This document shows, in pieces, positions 21,040-49,080 of a stretch of 49,080 nucleotides of DNA. This stretch comes from Bacteroidota bacterium (GTDB taxonomy: Bacteria > Bacteroidota > Bacteroidia > Palsa-965), in the NCBI GenBank assembly GCA_016194975.1, contig JACQAM010000002.1:1-49080 (forward strand), in the 5' to 3' direction. The position numbers and the translations under genes are program-made. Every line of letters starts with the position of its first letter. Positions within the stretch are counted from its first letter, which is position 1. The notes under the pieces were generated by a model. It ran no database searches. It was given only the letters and a program-made list of their open reading frames with translations, and was not told where the DNA came from.

Positions 21040-21101
21040 TTGAAAATTCAAAATTGTTTATAGCATTATTTGATCCTGAATCTTCAATTTTGAATTTTGA
21101 A
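21040..21101. repeat. A/T-rich inverted phrase before hrpB
   Basis: TTGAAAATTCAAAATTG (21040-21056) and CAATTTTGAATTTTGAA (21085-21101) are inverted copies with one mismatch over 17 bp. They end eight bases before the hrpB -7 box. Similar inverted phrases precede the lysC gene and the GNAT-TIM gene. Confidence 0.65.
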
Positions 21102-21108
21102 TAGCGCT

Positions 21109-21116
21109 TATCTTTA
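21109..21116 (+). promoter_or_regulatory. -7-like box before hrpB
   Basis: TATCTTTA matches TAnnTTTG except the last base and ends four bases before ATG 21121. The same 4-base spacing is seen for the DUF423 and neuB genes, suggesting leaderless transcripts. Confidence 0.45.
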
Positions 21117-21120
21117 CAAA

Positions 21121-22758
21121 ATGAATTCCCTTCCCATCGAAGAAGTAGTTGCGGAGATAAAAGAAAAACTTTCTTCGGGCAATACTGTTATTCTTGAAGC
21201 ACCACCCGGTGCAGGAAAAAGTACATGGCTTCCTTTGCAGTTGCTGAATGAAAATTGGCTTGATGGAAAAAAAATTCTCATGCTCGAACCGCGGCGGCTT
21301 GCTGCAAGAACTGTTGCAGCCCGGCTTGCTTCGCACCTTGGAGAAGAGAGCGGTGAAACGATCGGCTACCGGATTCGATTTGAAAAAAAGATCAGTGAGA
21401 AGACAAGAATTGAAATTCTTACCGAAGGAATTCTTACCCGCATGTTGCTCGATGATGCTTCACTTGAAAATGTGGGCCTCGTCATTTTCGATGAGTTTCA
21501 TGAGAGAAGTATTCACGCCGACCTTGGCCTGGCGATTTGCCTCGAAGTGCAGAAAATTCTCCGGCCTGATCTCAGAATTCTTATCATGTCGGCTACCATC
21601 AGCGGAGAAAAAATAGCTGCTCTGCTTGATCATGCGCCGGTGATCACGAGCCAGGGACGCCGGCATCCGGTTGTGTTTAAGTACAACTCTTATGAGGAAA
21701 ACATTCCACTTCCGGTTCAAACAGCGAAATTAGTGAGGCAGTCCTTCCGCGAGAACGATGGCGATGTTCTTGTTTTTCTTCCGGGGGCAGGGGAAATTCT
21801 CCGCACAATTGAAAATCTTGAAAAGGAAAACACCGGTGCGCTCATCGTTCCATTGTACGGCGATCTTTCTATTCAGAAGCAGCAGGAAGCGATAGAACCG
21901 GATAAAAATGACCGGAGAAAAATTGTTCTAGCGACTTCCATTGCGGAAACAAGTTTAACGATCGAAGGAATAAAAATTGTTGTTGATTCCGGTTTTGCGC
22001 GTGTGCCGCGATTCGATCCATCTTCGGGAATGACAAAACTGCAAACAGTTCGCGTAACGCGCGACAGTGCGGATCAGCGTGCGGGGCGCGCCGGACGACT
22101 CGGCCCCGGAATTTGTTACCGGTTGTGGAGTGAAGGATTCGACCATCATCTTATTCCGCATCGTGCGCCGGAGATCGAAGAAAGTGATCTTGCCTCCTTG
22201 TTGCTCGACGTGATGAGATGGGGAAATGAAAATATTTTTTCGCTCACGTGGATCACCGTACCCCCGCGAGGCGCGGTGGCGCAGGCAAAAGAATTACTGG
22301 AAGAAATCGGTGCGACCGAAAATGGAAAGATAACGGAGAAGGGAAAACAACTTGCAAAAATTCCCGCTCATCCCCGGATCGCCAATATGCTCTTGCATGC
22401 AAAAGAGATTCACGCGGAAAAATTTTCCTGCGATCTCGTTTCAATTCTTGAAGAACGCGATCCATTACCAGCAGGAAGTGGCGCAGATATTCATTTGAGG
22501 ATAGAATCACTGGAGAAATGGAGAAAACGGGAAATGGTGAATGCAGACAAACGGCGTCTCGAACAGATCAACAGGGGATCAGAAAACTGGAAACGTATCA
22601 TTGGATTAAAAAATAGTATTTCAGAAAAAAATAATTCTTCAGCCGGAGAATTGCTCGCGTGTGCGTACCCGGAACGCATTGCAAAAAAATGGAGGGGAAA
22701 AAATACCGTCTCGCTAATGGAAGGATTGCGGTTCTTCCCGAACACGATGCACTGCTAA
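21121..22758 (+). CDS. hrpB: ATP-dependent helicase HrpB, N-terminal portion (frame 1)
   Basis: This DEAH/RHA-type helicase part has Walker A APPGAGKST (27-35), Ia LEPRRLAARTVAARLA, Walker B DEFH (124-127), SAT in ILIMSATISG, motif V ATSIAETSLTIEGI and motif VI QRAGRAGRLGPG, followed by the HA2-like and HrpB-specific regions. The in-frame stop at 22758 truncates it: after residue 523 (PERIAKK) the reading departs from the family and runs 22 unrelated residues. The rest of HrpB continues in the -1 frame from 22689. The joined product would be about 823 residues, the usual HrpB length. The A7 run at 22683-22689 is the crossing point. The start is ATG 21121, next to a promoter box, rather than the in-frame ATG at 21097 inside the repeat. 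Confidence 0.9.
   Translation: MNSLPIEEVVAEIKEKLSSGNTVILEAPPGAGKSTWLPLQLLNENWLDGKKILMLEPRRLAARTVAARLASHLGEESGETIGYRIRFEKKISEKTRIEILTEGILTRMLLDDASLENVGLVIFDEFHERSIHADLGLAICLEVQKILRPDLRILIMSATISGEKIAALLDHAPVITSQGRRHPVVFKYNSYEENIPLPVQTAKLVRQSFRENDGDVLVFLPGAGEILRTIENLEKENTGALIVPLYGDLSIQKQQEAIEPDKNDRRKIVLATSIAETSLTIEGIKIVVDSGFARVPRFDPSSGMTKLQTVRVTRDSADQRAGRAGRLGPGICYRLWSEGFDHHLIPHRAPEIEESDLASLLLDVMRWGNENIFSLTWITVPPRGAVAQAKELLEEIGATENGKITEKGKQLAKIPAHPRIANMLLHAKEIHAEKFSCDLVSILEERDPLPAGSGADIHLRIESLEKWRKREMVNADKRRLEQINRGSENWKRIIGLKNSISEKNNSSAGELLACAYPERIAKKWRGKNTVSLMEGLRFFPNTMHC
22683..22689 (+). other. A-AAA-AAA slippery heptamer at the hrpB frame break
   Basis: In the upstream frame the bases read gcA AAA AAA tgg, the canonical X-XXY-YYZ form for -1 slippage. 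After a one-base slip the next codon is ATG at 22689 and the frame continues MEGKKYRLANGRIAVLPE, as expected for HrpB. Adding one A would give the same fused protein. No strong downstream hairpin was seen. Confidence 0.7.
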
Positions 22759-23591
22759 ATGAAGAATACATTTCCATTGCGCAACTTGATGCCGGCATGA
22801 AAGGAGAAGCAAAAATATTTCTCGCTGCGGCGCTTGACCCGGAAGTGATCGCACACCTCGCGCAGGAGAAGCGGGTAGTGGAGTGGGATGAAAAGAAAGG
22901 AGAGCTGGTCGCACATACGGAACTCCGCTTCGGGGAAATTATTCTTGAAAAAAAAATTCTGAAAACGATCCCTGAAGAAGAAAAAATAAAACTTGTCATT
23001 GACGCGGTGAAAAAAAGTGAAATGCAGTTGTTGAATATTTCAGAAGAATTTCTTGAATTTACATCGAGAGTGATCTGCCTGCGAAAATGGAATGCATCAA
23101 AAAACTGGCCGGATCTTTCTATGGAAAATCTTGTTTTGACCTCTGACGAATGGCTTGCTCCTTACCTGCAACATGTAAAAACAAAGAACGATCTTCTGAA
23201 AATAAATCTCCTGGAAATAATTTCAGCCAGATTCTCCTACGAAGAAAAACAATTGCTTGAAAAACTTGCGCCGCAGAAATTATCCGTACCAAGCGGATCG
23301 CACATAAAAATTAAATATCACGATGATGGAAGTGCGCCGGTGCTCGCGGTACGTTTGCAGGAAATTTTCGGAATGATAAAAACGCCGTCCATCAACAACG
23401 GAAAAATAAAATTGCTCATTCATCTCCTCTCGCCCGCGTACAGGCCCGTGCAGGTTACGCAGGATCTTGAAAGTTTCTGGAAGAATACATACTCCGAAGT
23501 GCGGAAAGATCTTCGCTCACGTTACCCGAAACATTCCTGGCCTGAAGATCCGCTAACGGCTGTTGCGGTTAGAGGAGTCAAAAGAAAATAA
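22689..23591 (+). CDS. hrpB: ATP-dependent helicase HrpB, C-terminal portion (frame 3)
   Basis: 300 residues from the ATG at 22689. The opening KKYRLANGRIAVLPEHDALLN matches the YxLxNGRGAxL region that follows PERIAK in HrpB. The end LHLLSPAYRPVQVTQDLESF, then WKNTYSEVRKDLRSRYPKHSWPEDPL, is the diagnostic HrpB C-terminal domain (RPxQxTxDLxxFW, YPKHxWPxDP). The segment has no helicase motifs of its own, so on its own it would not be an ATPase. It could be made by -1 frameshifting as a fusion, by reinitiation at the ATG (preceded only by A7, with no Shine-Dalgarno), or not at all if the gene is broken. The frame is open further upstream to 22659, but those codons overlap the N-terminal portion. 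Confidence 0.88.
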   Translation: MEGKKYRLANGRIAVLPEHDALLNEEYISIAQLDAGMKGEAKIFLAAALDPEVIAHLAQEKRVVEWDEKKGELVAHTELRFGEIILEKKILKTIPEEEKIKLVIDAVKKSEMQLLNISEEFLEFTSRVICLRKWNASKNWPDLSMENLVLTSDEWLAPYLQHVKTKNDLLKINLLEIISARFSYEEKQLLEKLAPQKLSVPSGSHIKIKYHDDGSAPVLAVRLQEIFGMIKTPSINNGKIKLLIHLLSPAYRPVQVTQDLESFWKNTYSEVRKDLRSRYPKHSWPEDPLTAVAVRGVKRK

Positions 23592-32510: not shown

Positions 32511-34445
32511 TCATTTTTTTCTTCTTATTCGGGCAATTGAAGTGCGGAACATTTTGTTTGCTGGTACTGAGAAATTATGAAGGAGCACAATGATCAGTGA
32601 GTAAATGATCGCAACTATGAACGCCACCCATAATTTCACAAAGAAGAAAAGTATGAGTCCGATTGCGAAACTCACAATGACCGTATCGATCACCCGATAA
32701 TTTTTATCAAACACATATTTCTGTTTCCGCATCCATGCGCGATAAAGGCCAATGAGAATAATAATGAACACCGGCGCAAGCGTATTGATCAGTTGCCATT
32801 TCAACCGGTGATCTTTTATTTTTCCTCGATCGAGCAAACGAAGCGTTACTTCGCGAGAACGCAGCGCGAGCATTCCTTTGTCATCACACAGGTAATTCAC
32901 GCAGTTGAGCAGGAAAGTTTTATTTGCATACAATACAGGGTTGTGATAATTCATCAGGTCATAACCGAGATCGGCGGTTTCTGTTCCTTTCACAGGATTC
33001 ATTGCCACTTCTCCGTCACCAACAACAATGATCTTCGAATCTTTTATGCTGTGTTGTTTGTAACCGATGATCTTGCTGTTCTTGAAGGTGTCGGGCAAAA
33101 ATTTATTTTTATAATAAGAATCAAAATTTCCTTCGAGCAGCACAGCAACCGACTGATCAGGTTTATCAAACATACGTTGATCGGGCGGCTGAAGAATTGC
33201 AAGTTTTATGCTGATGTGTGCGGGCGTACGCATGAAGCGCGACTTATCTGAACTCTTCAGCAGAATTGTTTTCTTCACATTCGTCGTGGTTCCAACCGTG
33301 TCAATCGTGGAAAGAAAATCGAATTTGATGCGATCAAGATTTCTTACAATGGGATGATCTTCGAGCGGAAGAATGGTAGGTGAATAAACCCACGGCACTT
33401 TGCGGTACTGTCCTCCTCTCATTGGTAAAACAAGATCGCTGCAATAGAGATCCTGCACCAGCGTTGTATTCATTCTCGCTCCATAACGGAATGTGAGATC
33501 TTCAAGTCCAAGTTTACGCGGCATCGCAAGTGTCTGGTAAGTCGCCGCAAGACTATCAATATCCGTGTACACCGGATCCACGAGAAAAAGCGCTTTTCCG
33601 CCGTACATAATAAACTGGTCGAGAATAAATAATTCCTGCGCGGTAAATACAGAATCGGGAGAATCAACAATGATGGCAGAATATTTATTCACGATCTGCG
33701 TTGCATCCTGCATCGTATCGCGGAATGCACCCAGGTTATTGTGAAACGGAACAAAATCGACATCATAATATTCGCGAAGCCCATTCACAAGATCGCGCAA
33801 CTGGAGCGTATCGGCCTCGCCATGTCCCTGCGTGATCGCGATCTTCGGTTTCAATCGCATCTGTAATTTGCGAATCGCATTCGTGAATTCATATTCGAGC
33901 CCTTCCACCGCGTGATTGATTATTTCTTCATCGCTCTTTTCCATATTCGTTCCAAGCAATGGAATTTTCACTTCTTTCCCTTTATAACTCGCGATCGCCC
34001 ATGGATAAAGTTTCATCACAGTCTCCGCACCTTTATCATCAACGAATGGTTCGGAATGCGGTTTCAACCCTTTTCCTTCAAGCTGTGTCTGGAAAGCGGT
34101 GCGCTGTGCGGGATTAGGATTTTCATTCGGATCTATGAATTCATAAGCGATGCGGTCTCCGCCATAAGCACGGAATTCATCGAGCATGATTCTCGCTTCA
34201 TCACGCAGATGTTTGAAATCGCCTGCACCCTGCGGAAAATCGCCTTCAAGATAAACTTTGAAATAAACAATGTCATCGAGATCCTTCAGCATCTGCTTGG
34301 TCGTCGGCGCAAGCGTGTAGCGTTTTTCCTGTGTAAGATCGAAGCGCACAAAATAATATTGTGAGGCCACATTGAGCAGCACAATGATCACTAATCCCAG
34401 GAAGAGATTGATGATGTCCGATCTTTTATTTCTTTTTGTGCGCAA
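32511..34445 (-). CDS. gldG: Gliding-motility ABC transporter-associated protein GldG
   Basis: The protein has 644 residues. An N-terminal membrane span (IINLFLGLVIIVLLNVASQY) follows a basic cytoplasmic start. The large exported domain of about 40-560 belongs to the ABC_transp_aux/GldG family, with YTLAPTTKQMLKDLDDIVYF, EFIDPNENPNPAQRTAFQ, KPKIAITQGHGEADTLQLRD and YGGKALFLVDPVYTDIDSLA. Membrane spans cluster at the C-terminal end (NTLAPVFIIILIGLYRAWMR, VIVSFAIGLILFFFVKLWVA). GldG works with GldF and the ATPase GldA in gliding and in export of surface components. gldF ends 12 bp upstream, so they form an operon. gldA is not in the window. Confidence 0.95.
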   Translation of the reverse strand: MRTKRNKRSDIINLFLGLVIIVLLNVASQYYFVRFDLTQEKRYTLAPTTKQMLKDLDDIVYFKVYLEGDFPQGAGDFKHLRDEARIMLDEFRAYGGDRIAYEFIDPNENPNPAQRTAFQTQLEGKGLKPHSEPFVDDKGAETVMKLYPWAIASYKGKEVKIPLLGTNMEKSDEEIINHAVEGLEYEFTNAIRKLQMRLKPKIAITQGHGEADTLQLRDLVNGLREYYDVDFVPFHNNLGAFRDTMQDATQIVNKYSAIIVDSPDSVFTAQELFILDQFIMYGGKALFLVDPVYTDIDSLAATYQTLAMPRKLGLEDLTFRYGARMNTTLVQDLYCSDLVLPMRGGQYRKVPWVYSPTILPLEDHPIVRNLDRIKFDFLSTIDTVGTTTNVKKTILLKSSDKSRFMRTPAHISIKLAILQPPDQRMFDKPDQSVAVLLEGNFDSYYKNKFLPDTFKNSKIIGYKQHSIKDSKIIVVGDGEVAMNPVKGTETADLGYDLMNYHNPVLYANKTFLLNCVNYLCDDKGMLALRSREVTLRLLDRGKIKDHRLKWQLINTLAPVFIIILIGLYRAWMRKQKYVFDKNYRVIDTVIVSFAIGLILFFFVKLWVAFIVAIIYSLIIVLLHNFSVPANKMFRTSIARIRRKK

Positions 34446-46389: not shown

Positions 46390-47403
46390 ATGTCAAAAGT
46401 TTTCATCATTGCTGAAGCGGGAGTGAATCACAATGGAAGTTTAGTGGCCGCTATGCATCTTGTAGATAAAGCGGTGGAGATAGGCGCCGATTGTATAAAA
46501 TTCCAGACGTTCAAAGCAGAACAGATCGTTACCGCACATTCTCCCAAAGCAGATTACCAGTTAAAAGTCACCGATAAAAAAGAGTCGCAGTTCGAGATGC
46601 TGAAAAAACTTGAACTCAACCGCGATGCATTTAAGGCGTTAAAAGAATATTGCGATAAGAGAAAAATAAAATTCCTCTCGACTCCTTATAATCCGGAAGA
46701 TGCCGATCTGCTGAATTCGATCGGGGTAGATGGATTTAAAATCGCCTCAGGGCAATTAGTGGAAACTTATTTTCTTAAGTACGTGGCGAAATTCGGAAAG
46801 CAGATGATCATTTCTACCGGCATGGGAAATATGGAGGAGGTGAAAAGCGCGGTCGATGCAATTCATTCTACCGGCAACAAAGACCTGGTTGTGCTACAAT
46901 GCAACACCGATTATCCTTCTAAGATCAGTGATTCTAATCTGCGTGCTATGCTCACCATGCGCGATGAATTGAAAGTGCGCGTTGGTTATTCCGACCACGT
47001 TCCGGAAAATTATGCCTGCTTTGCCGCTGTTACGTTGGGAGCGGAAGTGATCGAGAAACATTTTACACTCGATAAAACTTTGCCGGGGCCTGACCATTCT
47101 TCTTCGCTTGAGCCCGAAGAATTCCGTGAACTCATCAAAGGTGTACGCAGCATTGAACTTTCTCTTGGCGACGGAATAAAAAAACCATCGGAAGCAGAAA
47201 TAAAAAATACGTTCGGAATGCGGAGGAGTCTTGTCGCAAGAACCGATCTGGGAAAAGGAACGATCTTAAAAGCGGAACATATCGGTTTTAAAAGGCCGGC
47301 GAACGGATTATCTCCCGCATTATTTGAAAAGGTGATCGGCAAAGAATTATTGACCGATCTTAAAAAAGATGATCCTTTTACCAAAACCTCTGTTCTCCTA
47401 TGA
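46390..47403 (+). CDS. neuB: N-acetylneuraminate (nonulosonic acid) synthase
   Basis: The protein has 337 residues. The NeuB TIM barrel covers about 1-265: AEAGVNHNGSLVAAMHLVDK, ADCIKFQTFKAEQIVT, FLSTPYNPEDADLLNSIGVD, KIASGQLVETYFLKYVA, ISTGMGNMEEVKSAVDAI, LQCNTDYPSK, VGYSDHVPE and IEKHFTLDKTLPGPDHSSSL. It ends with a SAF/antifreeze-like domain, RRSLVARTDLGKGTILKAEH and the NGLSPALFEKVIGKEL region. It condenses phosphoenolpyruvate with a 6-carbon N-acyl sugar to give a sialic-, legionaminic- or pseudaminic-type acid. Which one cannot be told from this gene alone. It is directly followed by a GNAT/TIM fusion gene 70 bp downstream. Confidence 0.92.
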   Translation: MSKVFIIAEAGVNHNGSLVAAMHLVDKAVEIGADCIKFQTFKAEQIVTAHSPKADYQLKVTDKKESQFEMLKKLELNRDAFKALKEYCDKRKIKFLSTPYNPEDADLLNSIGVDGFKIASGQLVETYFLKYVAKFGKQMIISTGMGNMEEVKSAVDAIHSTGNKDLVVLQCNTDYPSKISDSNLRAMLTMRDELKVRVGYSDHVPENYACFAAVTLGAEVIEKHFTLDKTLPGPDHSSSLEPEEFRELIKGVRSIELSLGDGIKKPSEAEIKNTFGMRRSLVARTDLGKGTILKAEHIGFKRPANGLSPALFEKVIGKELLTDLKKDDPFTKTSVLL

Positions 47404-47473: not shown

Positions 47474-48727
47474 ATGGAATTCATCTGCATCAATAATAAG
47501 AATCTTTATTACCTCGAAGCTTTTGTAAAGAAGGCAGGCGATTCCCTGAAAACATTCCGCTACTTCGACAAACGGCCATTTTCCATTGTGAAAGATCACA
47601 TCTGCACCTGGGTGATAGAAGAAAAGAATGAAGTGTTGGCCTATGGTCATCTGGATAAGGAAAATGAAACAGTATGGCTGGGCATCGCAGTTGCGGATCA
47701 CGCGCGCGGAAAAGGCCTCGGAAAAAAAATGATGCAGCGGTTGATGGAGTCTGCTGCCGGTTGCGGAATTCAGAAAATAAAATTGTCGGTCGATCATGTG
47801 AATGAAGCAGCAATTAAACTGTATGAGTGTTTTGGTTTTCATCTTGCAGAGAAAAAGGAAACGTTCGGTTTTTACGAATGGAATGCGGCCCCATTTGAAA
47901 AAATAGTGATCAGCACCCTTGCATTTACCGGAATGAAAGCGGAAGAGATCATCAAGGTTGCGTTAGAACACAACTTTGCGCTGGAGTTCTCTTCCGGAAT
48001 GTACTATCGGGCCGATATGGAAAAAATATTTCTCGAAGCGCCGGTGAAAAGATTTGTCCATAATTATTTTCCACCTCCCGAAATCCCTTTCGTGCTGAAT
48101 CTCGCCAGTGCCAATGAAGAAATAAGAAAAAGATCGGTGGAGCATTGCGTAAATGGAATAAAATTAAATTACGCGGCAGGCGCTTCTTTTTTTTCTGCTC
48201 ACGCCGGATTCTGCATCGACCCAAAGCCATCGGAACTGGGGAAGGAACTTTCTAAAGTAAAGTCGTTCGATCGCGCGAAGCATTGGAAAATATTTCTTGA
48301 AAGTATCCGCGAAGTTCTTGAAAGGGCCAAAGATCTTCCCACCGGTTTTTTATTGGAGAATAATGTACTTGCAAAAATGAATTTGTATCCCGATGGATCG
48401 AATCCATTGCTGAACGTGCGCGCCGCAGAAATGAACCTGATGCTTGAAGAAATAAATGATCCGCGTATCGGGAACCTTGTGGACACGGCTCATTTAAAAG
48501 TTTCTTCGGCCACCCTCCATTTTGATCTTGTTTCAGAAATGAATTCAATTTCCGGTGTACGCTGTATTCATCACAGTGACAATGACGGATGGAAAGACGA
48601 TAATCAACCATTTGGAAAAAATTATTGGTTTTTACCATTGATGAAAAACTATCGGCACGCAATTCATGTGCTTGAAGTGAGAAAGCAAAGTGTGGAAGAA
48701 TTGAAGAAGATGGAGAAGATGTTGTGA
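47474..48727 (+). CDS. GNAT acetyltransferase / TIM-barrel (sugar isomerase-epimerase-like) fusion
   Basis: The protein has 417 residues in two domains. Residues 1-140 are a GNAT domain with acetyl-CoA loop ARGKGLGKK at 77-85 and NEAAIKLYECFGF at 110-122. Residues 143-417 form an AP-endonuclease-2/xylose-isomerase-like TIM barrel with likely metal ligands in SAHAGF (H243), LLENN (E295), LVDTAH (D337, H340) and IHHSDNDG (H366/H367, D369). All expected metal positions appear kept, so both domains are likely active. An N-acyltransferase joined to a sugar isomerase or epimerase next to neuB suits synthesis of an acylated nonulosonic acid or its precursor sugar. The pathway is inferred. The gene ends 126 bp before the CRISPR repeats, with a short hairpin at 48726-48748. 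Confidence 0.88.
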   Translation: MEFICINNKNLYYLEAFVKKAGDSLKTFRYFDKRPFSIVKDHICTWVIEEKNEVLAYGHLDKENETVWLGIAVADHARGKGLGKKMMQRLMESAAGCGIQKIKLSVDHVNEAAIKLYECFGFHLAEKKETFGFYEWNAAPFEKIVISTLAFTGMKAEEIIKVALEHNFALEFSSGMYYRADMEKIFLEAPVKRFVHNYFPPPEIPFVLNLASANEEIRKRSVEHCVNGIKLNYAAGASFFSAHAGFCIDPKPSELGKELSKVKSFDRAKHWKIFLESIREVLERAKDLPTGFLLENNVLAKMNLYPDGSNPLLNVRAAEMNLMLEEINDPRIGNLVDTAHLKVSSATLHFDLVSEMNSISGVRCIHHSDNDGWKDDNQPFGKNYWFLPLMKNYRHAIHVLEVRKQSVEELKKMEKML

Positions 48728-48837: not shown

Positions 48838-48853
48838 GCAGGACAAGTGCACC

Positions 48854-49068
48854 GTTGTGGTTTGATTTCAAAGAGGGATAAAAAACTTTGAACCAGTCAA
48901 ACCCAATAAAATCAATAAGGTTGTGGTTTGATTTCAAAGAGGGATAAAAAACTTTTTCCCATACCCAAACATTGCGCTGTTTACCGTTGTGGTTTGATTT
49001 CAAAGAGGGATAAAAAACTTTACAGAAAAGGAAAACACACCGTCACCATTGGTTGTGGTTTGATTTCA
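48854..49068 (+). CRISPR. CRISPR array, 36-bp repeats and 30-bp spacers, truncated at contig end
   Basis: Three identical 36-bp repeats (48854-48889, 48920-48955, 48986-49021; starting GTTGTGGTTTGATTTC and ending ATAAAAAACTTT) are separated by unique 30-bp spacers. A fourth repeat starts at 49052 and is cut after 17 bases by adapter sequence. The 66-bp period is exact. Repeat length, spacer length and the GTTGTGGTTTGATT start resemble type II-C arrays of Bacteroidota; the type is inferred because no cas gene is present in the window. A repeat-coded artefact peptide (KVFYPSLKSNHN repeated) appears on the opposite strand. Confidence 0.95.
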
Positions 49069-49080
49069 GATCGGAAGAGC
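49068..49080 (+). other. Illumina adapter sequence at contig end
   Basis: The final 13 bases are AGATCGGAAGAGC, the standard TruSeq adapter start. The fourth CRISPR repeat should read AAAGAGGG from this point. The end is therefore not genomic. Confidence 0.95.

Follow-up and report, generated by a model that had tools for sequence, protein, structure and literature searches.

HrpB is an ATP-dependent DEAH-box helicase, described by the family profile TIGR01970 and by the E. coli structures 6eud and 6heg. Genes with interrupted reading frames, on the other hand, are known in several forms. The GeneTack authors describe singleton frame-transition genes, whose break is ascribed to a recent indel or to sequencing error and is not shared within the family, and those validated by BLAST are expected in their account to be mostly sequencing errors (PMC3711429). 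In other cases the break is compensated during expression. The tssM gene of C. rodentium carries an A11 run and is rescued by slippage (PMC4256274), while dnaX of E. coli undergoes -1 frameshifting at A AAA AAG (PMC5009743). Insertions made during transcription of A/T runs increase with run length (PMC5574713), and for a large share of genomes nine is given as the slippage-prone length (PMC1088944). The hrpB gene described here falls among these known kinds, singleton frame transitions and slippage-rescued genes, with nothing beyond them. Its break most likely reflects either a recent mutation of an ordinary kind or a sequence error confined to this place.

The split hrpB gene

The window analysed is a whole contig (C2) of 49,080 bases; the genome to which it belongs comprises 28 contigs and 4.10 Mb and is 99.78% complete. 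On its forward strand an upstream hrpB ORF of 553 aa (21097..22758, beginning at TTG 21097 or ATG 21121) encodes the helicase core and ends in an out-of-frame tail and a stop, while the remainder of HrpB is encoded in the -1 frame by a downstream ORF of 310 aa (22659..23591). In a profile search the upstream ORF matched positions 1-523 of the 825 in TIGR01970 with 648 bits, by itself exceeding the curated cut-off of 546, and the downstream ORF matched positions 520-824 with 305 bits. The Pfam domains DEAD and Helicase_C are found in the former, together with GAGKST, DEFH, SAT and QRAGRAGR, which we take to be helicase motifs. The latter contains the connector CON_HrpB (PF24473) and HrpB_C (PF08482), and aligns to residues 507-806 of E. 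coli 6heg.

A genome-wide search with the TIGR01970 profile returned these two segments as the sole HrpB matches and, since they adjoin each other in the profile, they represent one single-copy hrpB; it has one net -1 frame change, as the initial annotation had proposed. The whole family profile is covered by the two frames together. HrpB is therefore not read here in one uninterrupted frame, and this gene differs from the solved and related copies examined in having a frame change in the linker before YRLANGR. Both frames are open over 22635..22755 of the forward strand (including the open frame of 318 aa), an overlap of ~120 nt, and the change lies somewhere inside this region, by homology at ~22681-22706. 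The joined reading spans 831 codons from TTG 21097 or 823 from ATG 21121, the second agreeing with the near-normal length of about 823 residues first estimated. Beyond the frame break itself, neither half contains a further stop.

Position of the frame change

The break had been placed at an A-AAA-AAA heptamer. A run of seven A is indeed present on the forward strand at 22683..22689 in the X XXY YYZ phase, the upstream frame reading GCA AAA AAA TGG, although the break need not lie exactly there. A G4 run follows at 22694-22697, and 8 nt past the A7 run begins a second slip-like heptamer, A AAA AAT (22698..22704, forward strand; A6 at 22698-22703, then T), which fits the frame change equally. 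Over the switch points tested between 22684 and 22710, a range that covers all three runs, the codon-model score stays flat (5.0 to 6.1), and the linker from PERIA to YRLANGR is variable among relatives. For these reasons the break is not pinned to A7, and G4 and A6 are equally good candidates. The switch-point method misplaced the change by a median of 8 nt in the 100 detected of 120 simulated one-base losses.

Conservation of the reading frame in relatives

Altogether 99 genomes were searched, including the present one, and only 28 of them match the C-terminal half of HrpB, a distribution which marks hrpB as dispensable in this class. Besides the gene under study, 29 related loci were fetched, of which 28, from 27 genomes, hold the junction (L031 is without it). 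In all 28 the junction lies in one open frame, some of these loci being cut by contig ends elsewhere, and neither a broken frame nor an A7 run in the X XXY YYZ phase occurs at the junction in any of them. Uninterrupted relatives free of the homopolymer, which had been named as evidence against the original reading, are thus what was found, with the exception of L008, where an A7 run near the junction stands in another phase and the frame is unbroken. In the remaining related loci the longest A run is at most six in the 66 bases compared at the junction. The gene is also unbroken in all six other genus members (G001 to G006). A genus-wide DNA search gave seven genomes, the present one included, the nearest being 65-72% identical in their best segments, and no second genome of the same species was among the seven.

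The same picture extends to more distant homologues. A set of 28 named loci from GTDB genomes was assembled, in which 24 hold both halves of hrpB, the upstream half being absent from the other four (L037, L043, L046 and L053). All 24 are single ORFs, a count that includes L036, L038 and L059, for which the junction text itself was not displayed. Distant loci L032 and L040 have A7 runs near the junction in other phases. Conserved frameshifting is rejected on the unbroken frames of all 28 related and all 24 distant two-half loci.

These comparisons weigh against a reading in which the break is rescued by recoding, so that some full-length HrpB would be made beside the truncated core. Such recoding could take place in transcription, by slippage of RNA polymerase on the A run, or in translation, by -1 slippage of the ribosome at either heptamer, A AAA AAA or A AAA AAT. 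The arrangement invites such a reading: slip heptamers lie in the correct phase and direction within the upstream frame, there is a -1 overlap of ~120 nt, the downstream frame is conserved, and a scan covering 26 of the 30 tRNA loci showed one tRNA-Lys (UUU). As in tssM, an A run is accompanied by a shifted downstream ORF, and longer A/T runs do attract more transcriptional insertions, as cited above. However, the hrpB run is shorter than that of tssM and is not conserved, both break and site being absent from the 28 related loci, and intact genes of this genome often carry runs from A7 to A9. In comparison with dnaX the heptamer is a weaker one, A AAA AAA being much less shift-prone in E. coli than A AAA AAG (PMC5009743); it is likewise unconserved, and no stimulator was found in the two folds tried.

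With respect to the latter, two downstream folds, 22690-22790 (z -0.34) and 22704-22810 (z +1.32), gave no stimulatory hairpin, and the only repeat near the junction is a 12-nt palindrome at 22786-22801. Among the features expected of programmed -1 frameshifting, a slippery heptamer within the overlap is present and conservation among relatives is absent. For rescue by transcriptional slippage one would expect a run kept by selection and long enough to slip, about nine in many genomes (PMC1088944), whereas the run here is seven and unconserved. Recoding is accordingly regarded as improbable. Real frameshifting, which the initial annotation raised as one option, and its corollary of two products, the core alone and the full-length protein, are not supported, the site being unconserved, the heptamer common and the two folds unremarkable.

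A further reading holds that HrpB has become two proteins, with the C-terminal part started separately at an ATG in the -1 frame (22689..22691, forward strand). This codon uses the last A of the A7 run and lies right at the junction, both parts of the gene are conserved, and A is found at -3 and -6, positions at which A favours initiation in Flavobacterium johnsoniae (PMC6847099). This context counts as favourable in Bacteroidetes, the phylum to which the organism probably belongs, judging by its gene content. Against this, a split hrpB is absent from all the related and distant loci examined, the AUG sits inside a translated ORF, and in a genome of this kind chance alone should produce A-rich ATGs. 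A separate start is regarded as very improbable.

Rate of change and constraint

Tajima-type counts of amino-acid changes were made with G007 as outgroup, comparing the present gene with the genus copies of G001 and G003-G006 (G002 was left out). In the N part its unique changes against G001, G004, G005 and G006 numbered 84 v 29, 76 v 33, 86 v 29 and 87 v 41, and in the C part 41 v 20, 36 v 22, 43 v 26 and 54 v 23, so that it has evolved 1.6-3.0 times faster than four of the five genus copies. No excess was seen against G003 (54 v 70 in the N part, 35 v 45 in the C part), whose frame is intact. Three control genes of the same contig, for which the listed homologues only were used, were balanced against the closest sister G001 (35 v 34, 47 v 45 and 44 v 41), although one of them, an M1 peptidase, showed an excess in the present genome against G005 (93 v 59) and G003 (98 v 64).

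Despite this rate, the gene departs from only 2 of 88 and 0 of 27 otherwise invariant columns, and relative to the controls there is no shift of its specific changes to codon positions 1 and 2. By these two measures no decay is visible. An old pseudogene is not supported, given the absence of further stops and the 86 of 88 and 27 of 27 invariant columns kept. With the C-terminal frame conserved and nearly all invariant columns retained, the break is recent, or an error, or compensated. The G003 copy (L016), equally fast and in an intact frame, itself departs from 7 of 93 otherwise invariant columns.

The elevation in both parts of the gene, together with the fast but intact G003 copy, points to weaker constraint in some lineages rather than to a dead gene, and G003 also demonstrates that fast evolution does not imply loss. 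A raised rate beside control genes that match the rate of the closest sister mildly favours a real mutation, since an excess over four of five genus copies is what weakened constraint would give. Counted on the other side are the equally fast yet intact G003, the excess in the M1 peptidase control and the lack of visible decay.

Homopolymers and frame breaks elsewhere in the genome

Two samples of the genome were used as a reference. Sample 1 comprised contig starts and the window (425,628 bases, 206 long ORFs), and sample 2 contig interiors (380 kb usable out of 400,000 bases, the other 20,000 reading N; 172 ORFs). A7 runs are frequent in their intact ORFs, with 167 in sample 1 and 190 in sample 2, and 68 and 73 of these, respectively, stand in the A AAA AAA phase, which is ordinary in this genome. 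Longer runs are also carried by intact ORFs, A8 being found 59 and 71 times and A9 five times in each sample, and the downstream half of hrpB has an A9 run of its own at 22948-22956 with the frame intact.

A frame-switch scan of 3544 ORF pairs in sample 1 gave 20 candidates, hrpB and 19 others. In eight of them the best switch point is followed by a stop at a distance of over 12 nt: hrpB, L070 near 569, L071 near 1068, L074 near 11838, L086 near 93, 12620 and 19024, and L072 near 19525. Inspection covered hrpB, L070, L071, L074 and L086 near 93 and 19024. Three appear split, namely hrpB, a MORN-repeat gene in L071 and an Ig-repeat gene in L070, while L074 and the two L086 places were ambiguous. 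The MORN-repeat gene (L071:811-1508, at the start of contig C4) is seemingly frame-broken, its MORN matches lying below the Pfam cut-off. In sample 2 the scan gave 33 candidates, five with a stop more than 12 nt away. Three of these (L106, L107 and L108) look like neighbouring genes on inspection, and the remaining wide-overlap candidates are L102 and L093 (start codon at the stop). Within the 380 kb of interiors none of the 33 candidates was clearly a split gene, inspection having covered three of the five with wide overlaps. In simulation the scan flagged 79 of 120 one-base losses with a stop more than 12 nt away. Intact A7, A8 and A9 runs, taken with this sensitivity, make it unlikely that bases are generally lost at homopolymers, and general undercalling of homopolymers is not supported. 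Outside this genome, the homologue in G010 (L172) of the window ORF 32511-34445 has two in-frame TAA stops.

The contig end and possible sequencing error

The contig closes with the 13 bases AGATCGGAAGAGC (49068-49080), which we take to be an Illumina adapter core; the adapter noticed in the initial annotation is thus present, and it is the only exact copy in the genome. A 36-nt repeat, GTTGTGGTTTGATTTCAAAGAGGGATAAAAAACTTT, occurs within 48851-49080 in three full copies that are spaced at 66 nt and resemble the start of a CRISPR array, and a fourth copy passes into the adapter core after 16 bases, which is read as the assembly ending inside the array. Further inward, a single ORF at 47474-48727 combines a GNAT acetyltransferase domain with a xylose-isomerase-like TIM barrel, and is adjoined by a NeuB-like sialic-acid synthase gene at 46390-47403.

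The untrimmed adapter speaks of imperfect short-read processing and so lends some weight to the reading that the break is an isolated error of sequencing, assembly or consensus, and that the organism has an intact hrpB. Conservation of both halves, with neither stop nor decay, is in keeping with this, as are the two other probably split or damaged genes, L071 near 1068 and L070 near 569, each less than 1.1 kb from a contig end. The hrpB break, in contrast, is 22 kb inside its contig and away from the ends, and both samples show the longer runs, A8 and A9, intact. In Illumina data, moreover, homopolymer errors are uncommon. The GeneTack expectation for validated singletons leans towards an error, and hrpB resembles that class in being confirmed by homology while its break is unshared in the family. 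Its A7 run has the length of poly-A that PMC3711429 counts as slip-prone, and no notable difference from the singleton class emerges. An isolated error is consequently a serious possibility, with a probability of about one in three.

Origin and meaning of the break

The explanation placed first is a recent and genuine one-base change (net -1) that broke a single-copy, otherwise conserved hrpB, to which we give an even chance. The initial annotation had asked for a real mutation to be considered, and it remains a leading reading, none of the relatives examined sharing the break and both halves being conserved; the dispensability of hrpB in the class and the lack of a general loss at homopolymers also speak for it. 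On this view the organism itself mutated in the A/G-rich linker at ~22681-22706, with slippage during replication of a short homopolymer (A7, G4 or A6) as the probable cause. What would be left is a helicase core that lacks the C-terminal part, either a pseudogene of very recent origin or a truncation that is tolerated. A real indel is therefore ranked ahead of an isolated error, recoding and a split gene, in that order, with the first two ordered on weak evidence.

If the break is an ordinary indel or an error, the matter is one of annotation only, and the two ORFs are one gene to be marked as frame-broken. It is also conceivable, though unlikely, that the lineage lives with a two-piece or slippage-rescued HrpB, in which the core and the C-terminal protein would both be functional, through ATG 22689 or slippage at the paired A7/A6 runs, and the raised rate would reflect adaptation. 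Were the gene rescued or split in such a manner, it would offer an example of a recent, tolerated frame break in a free-standing DEAH helicase, at the border before its C-terminal part.
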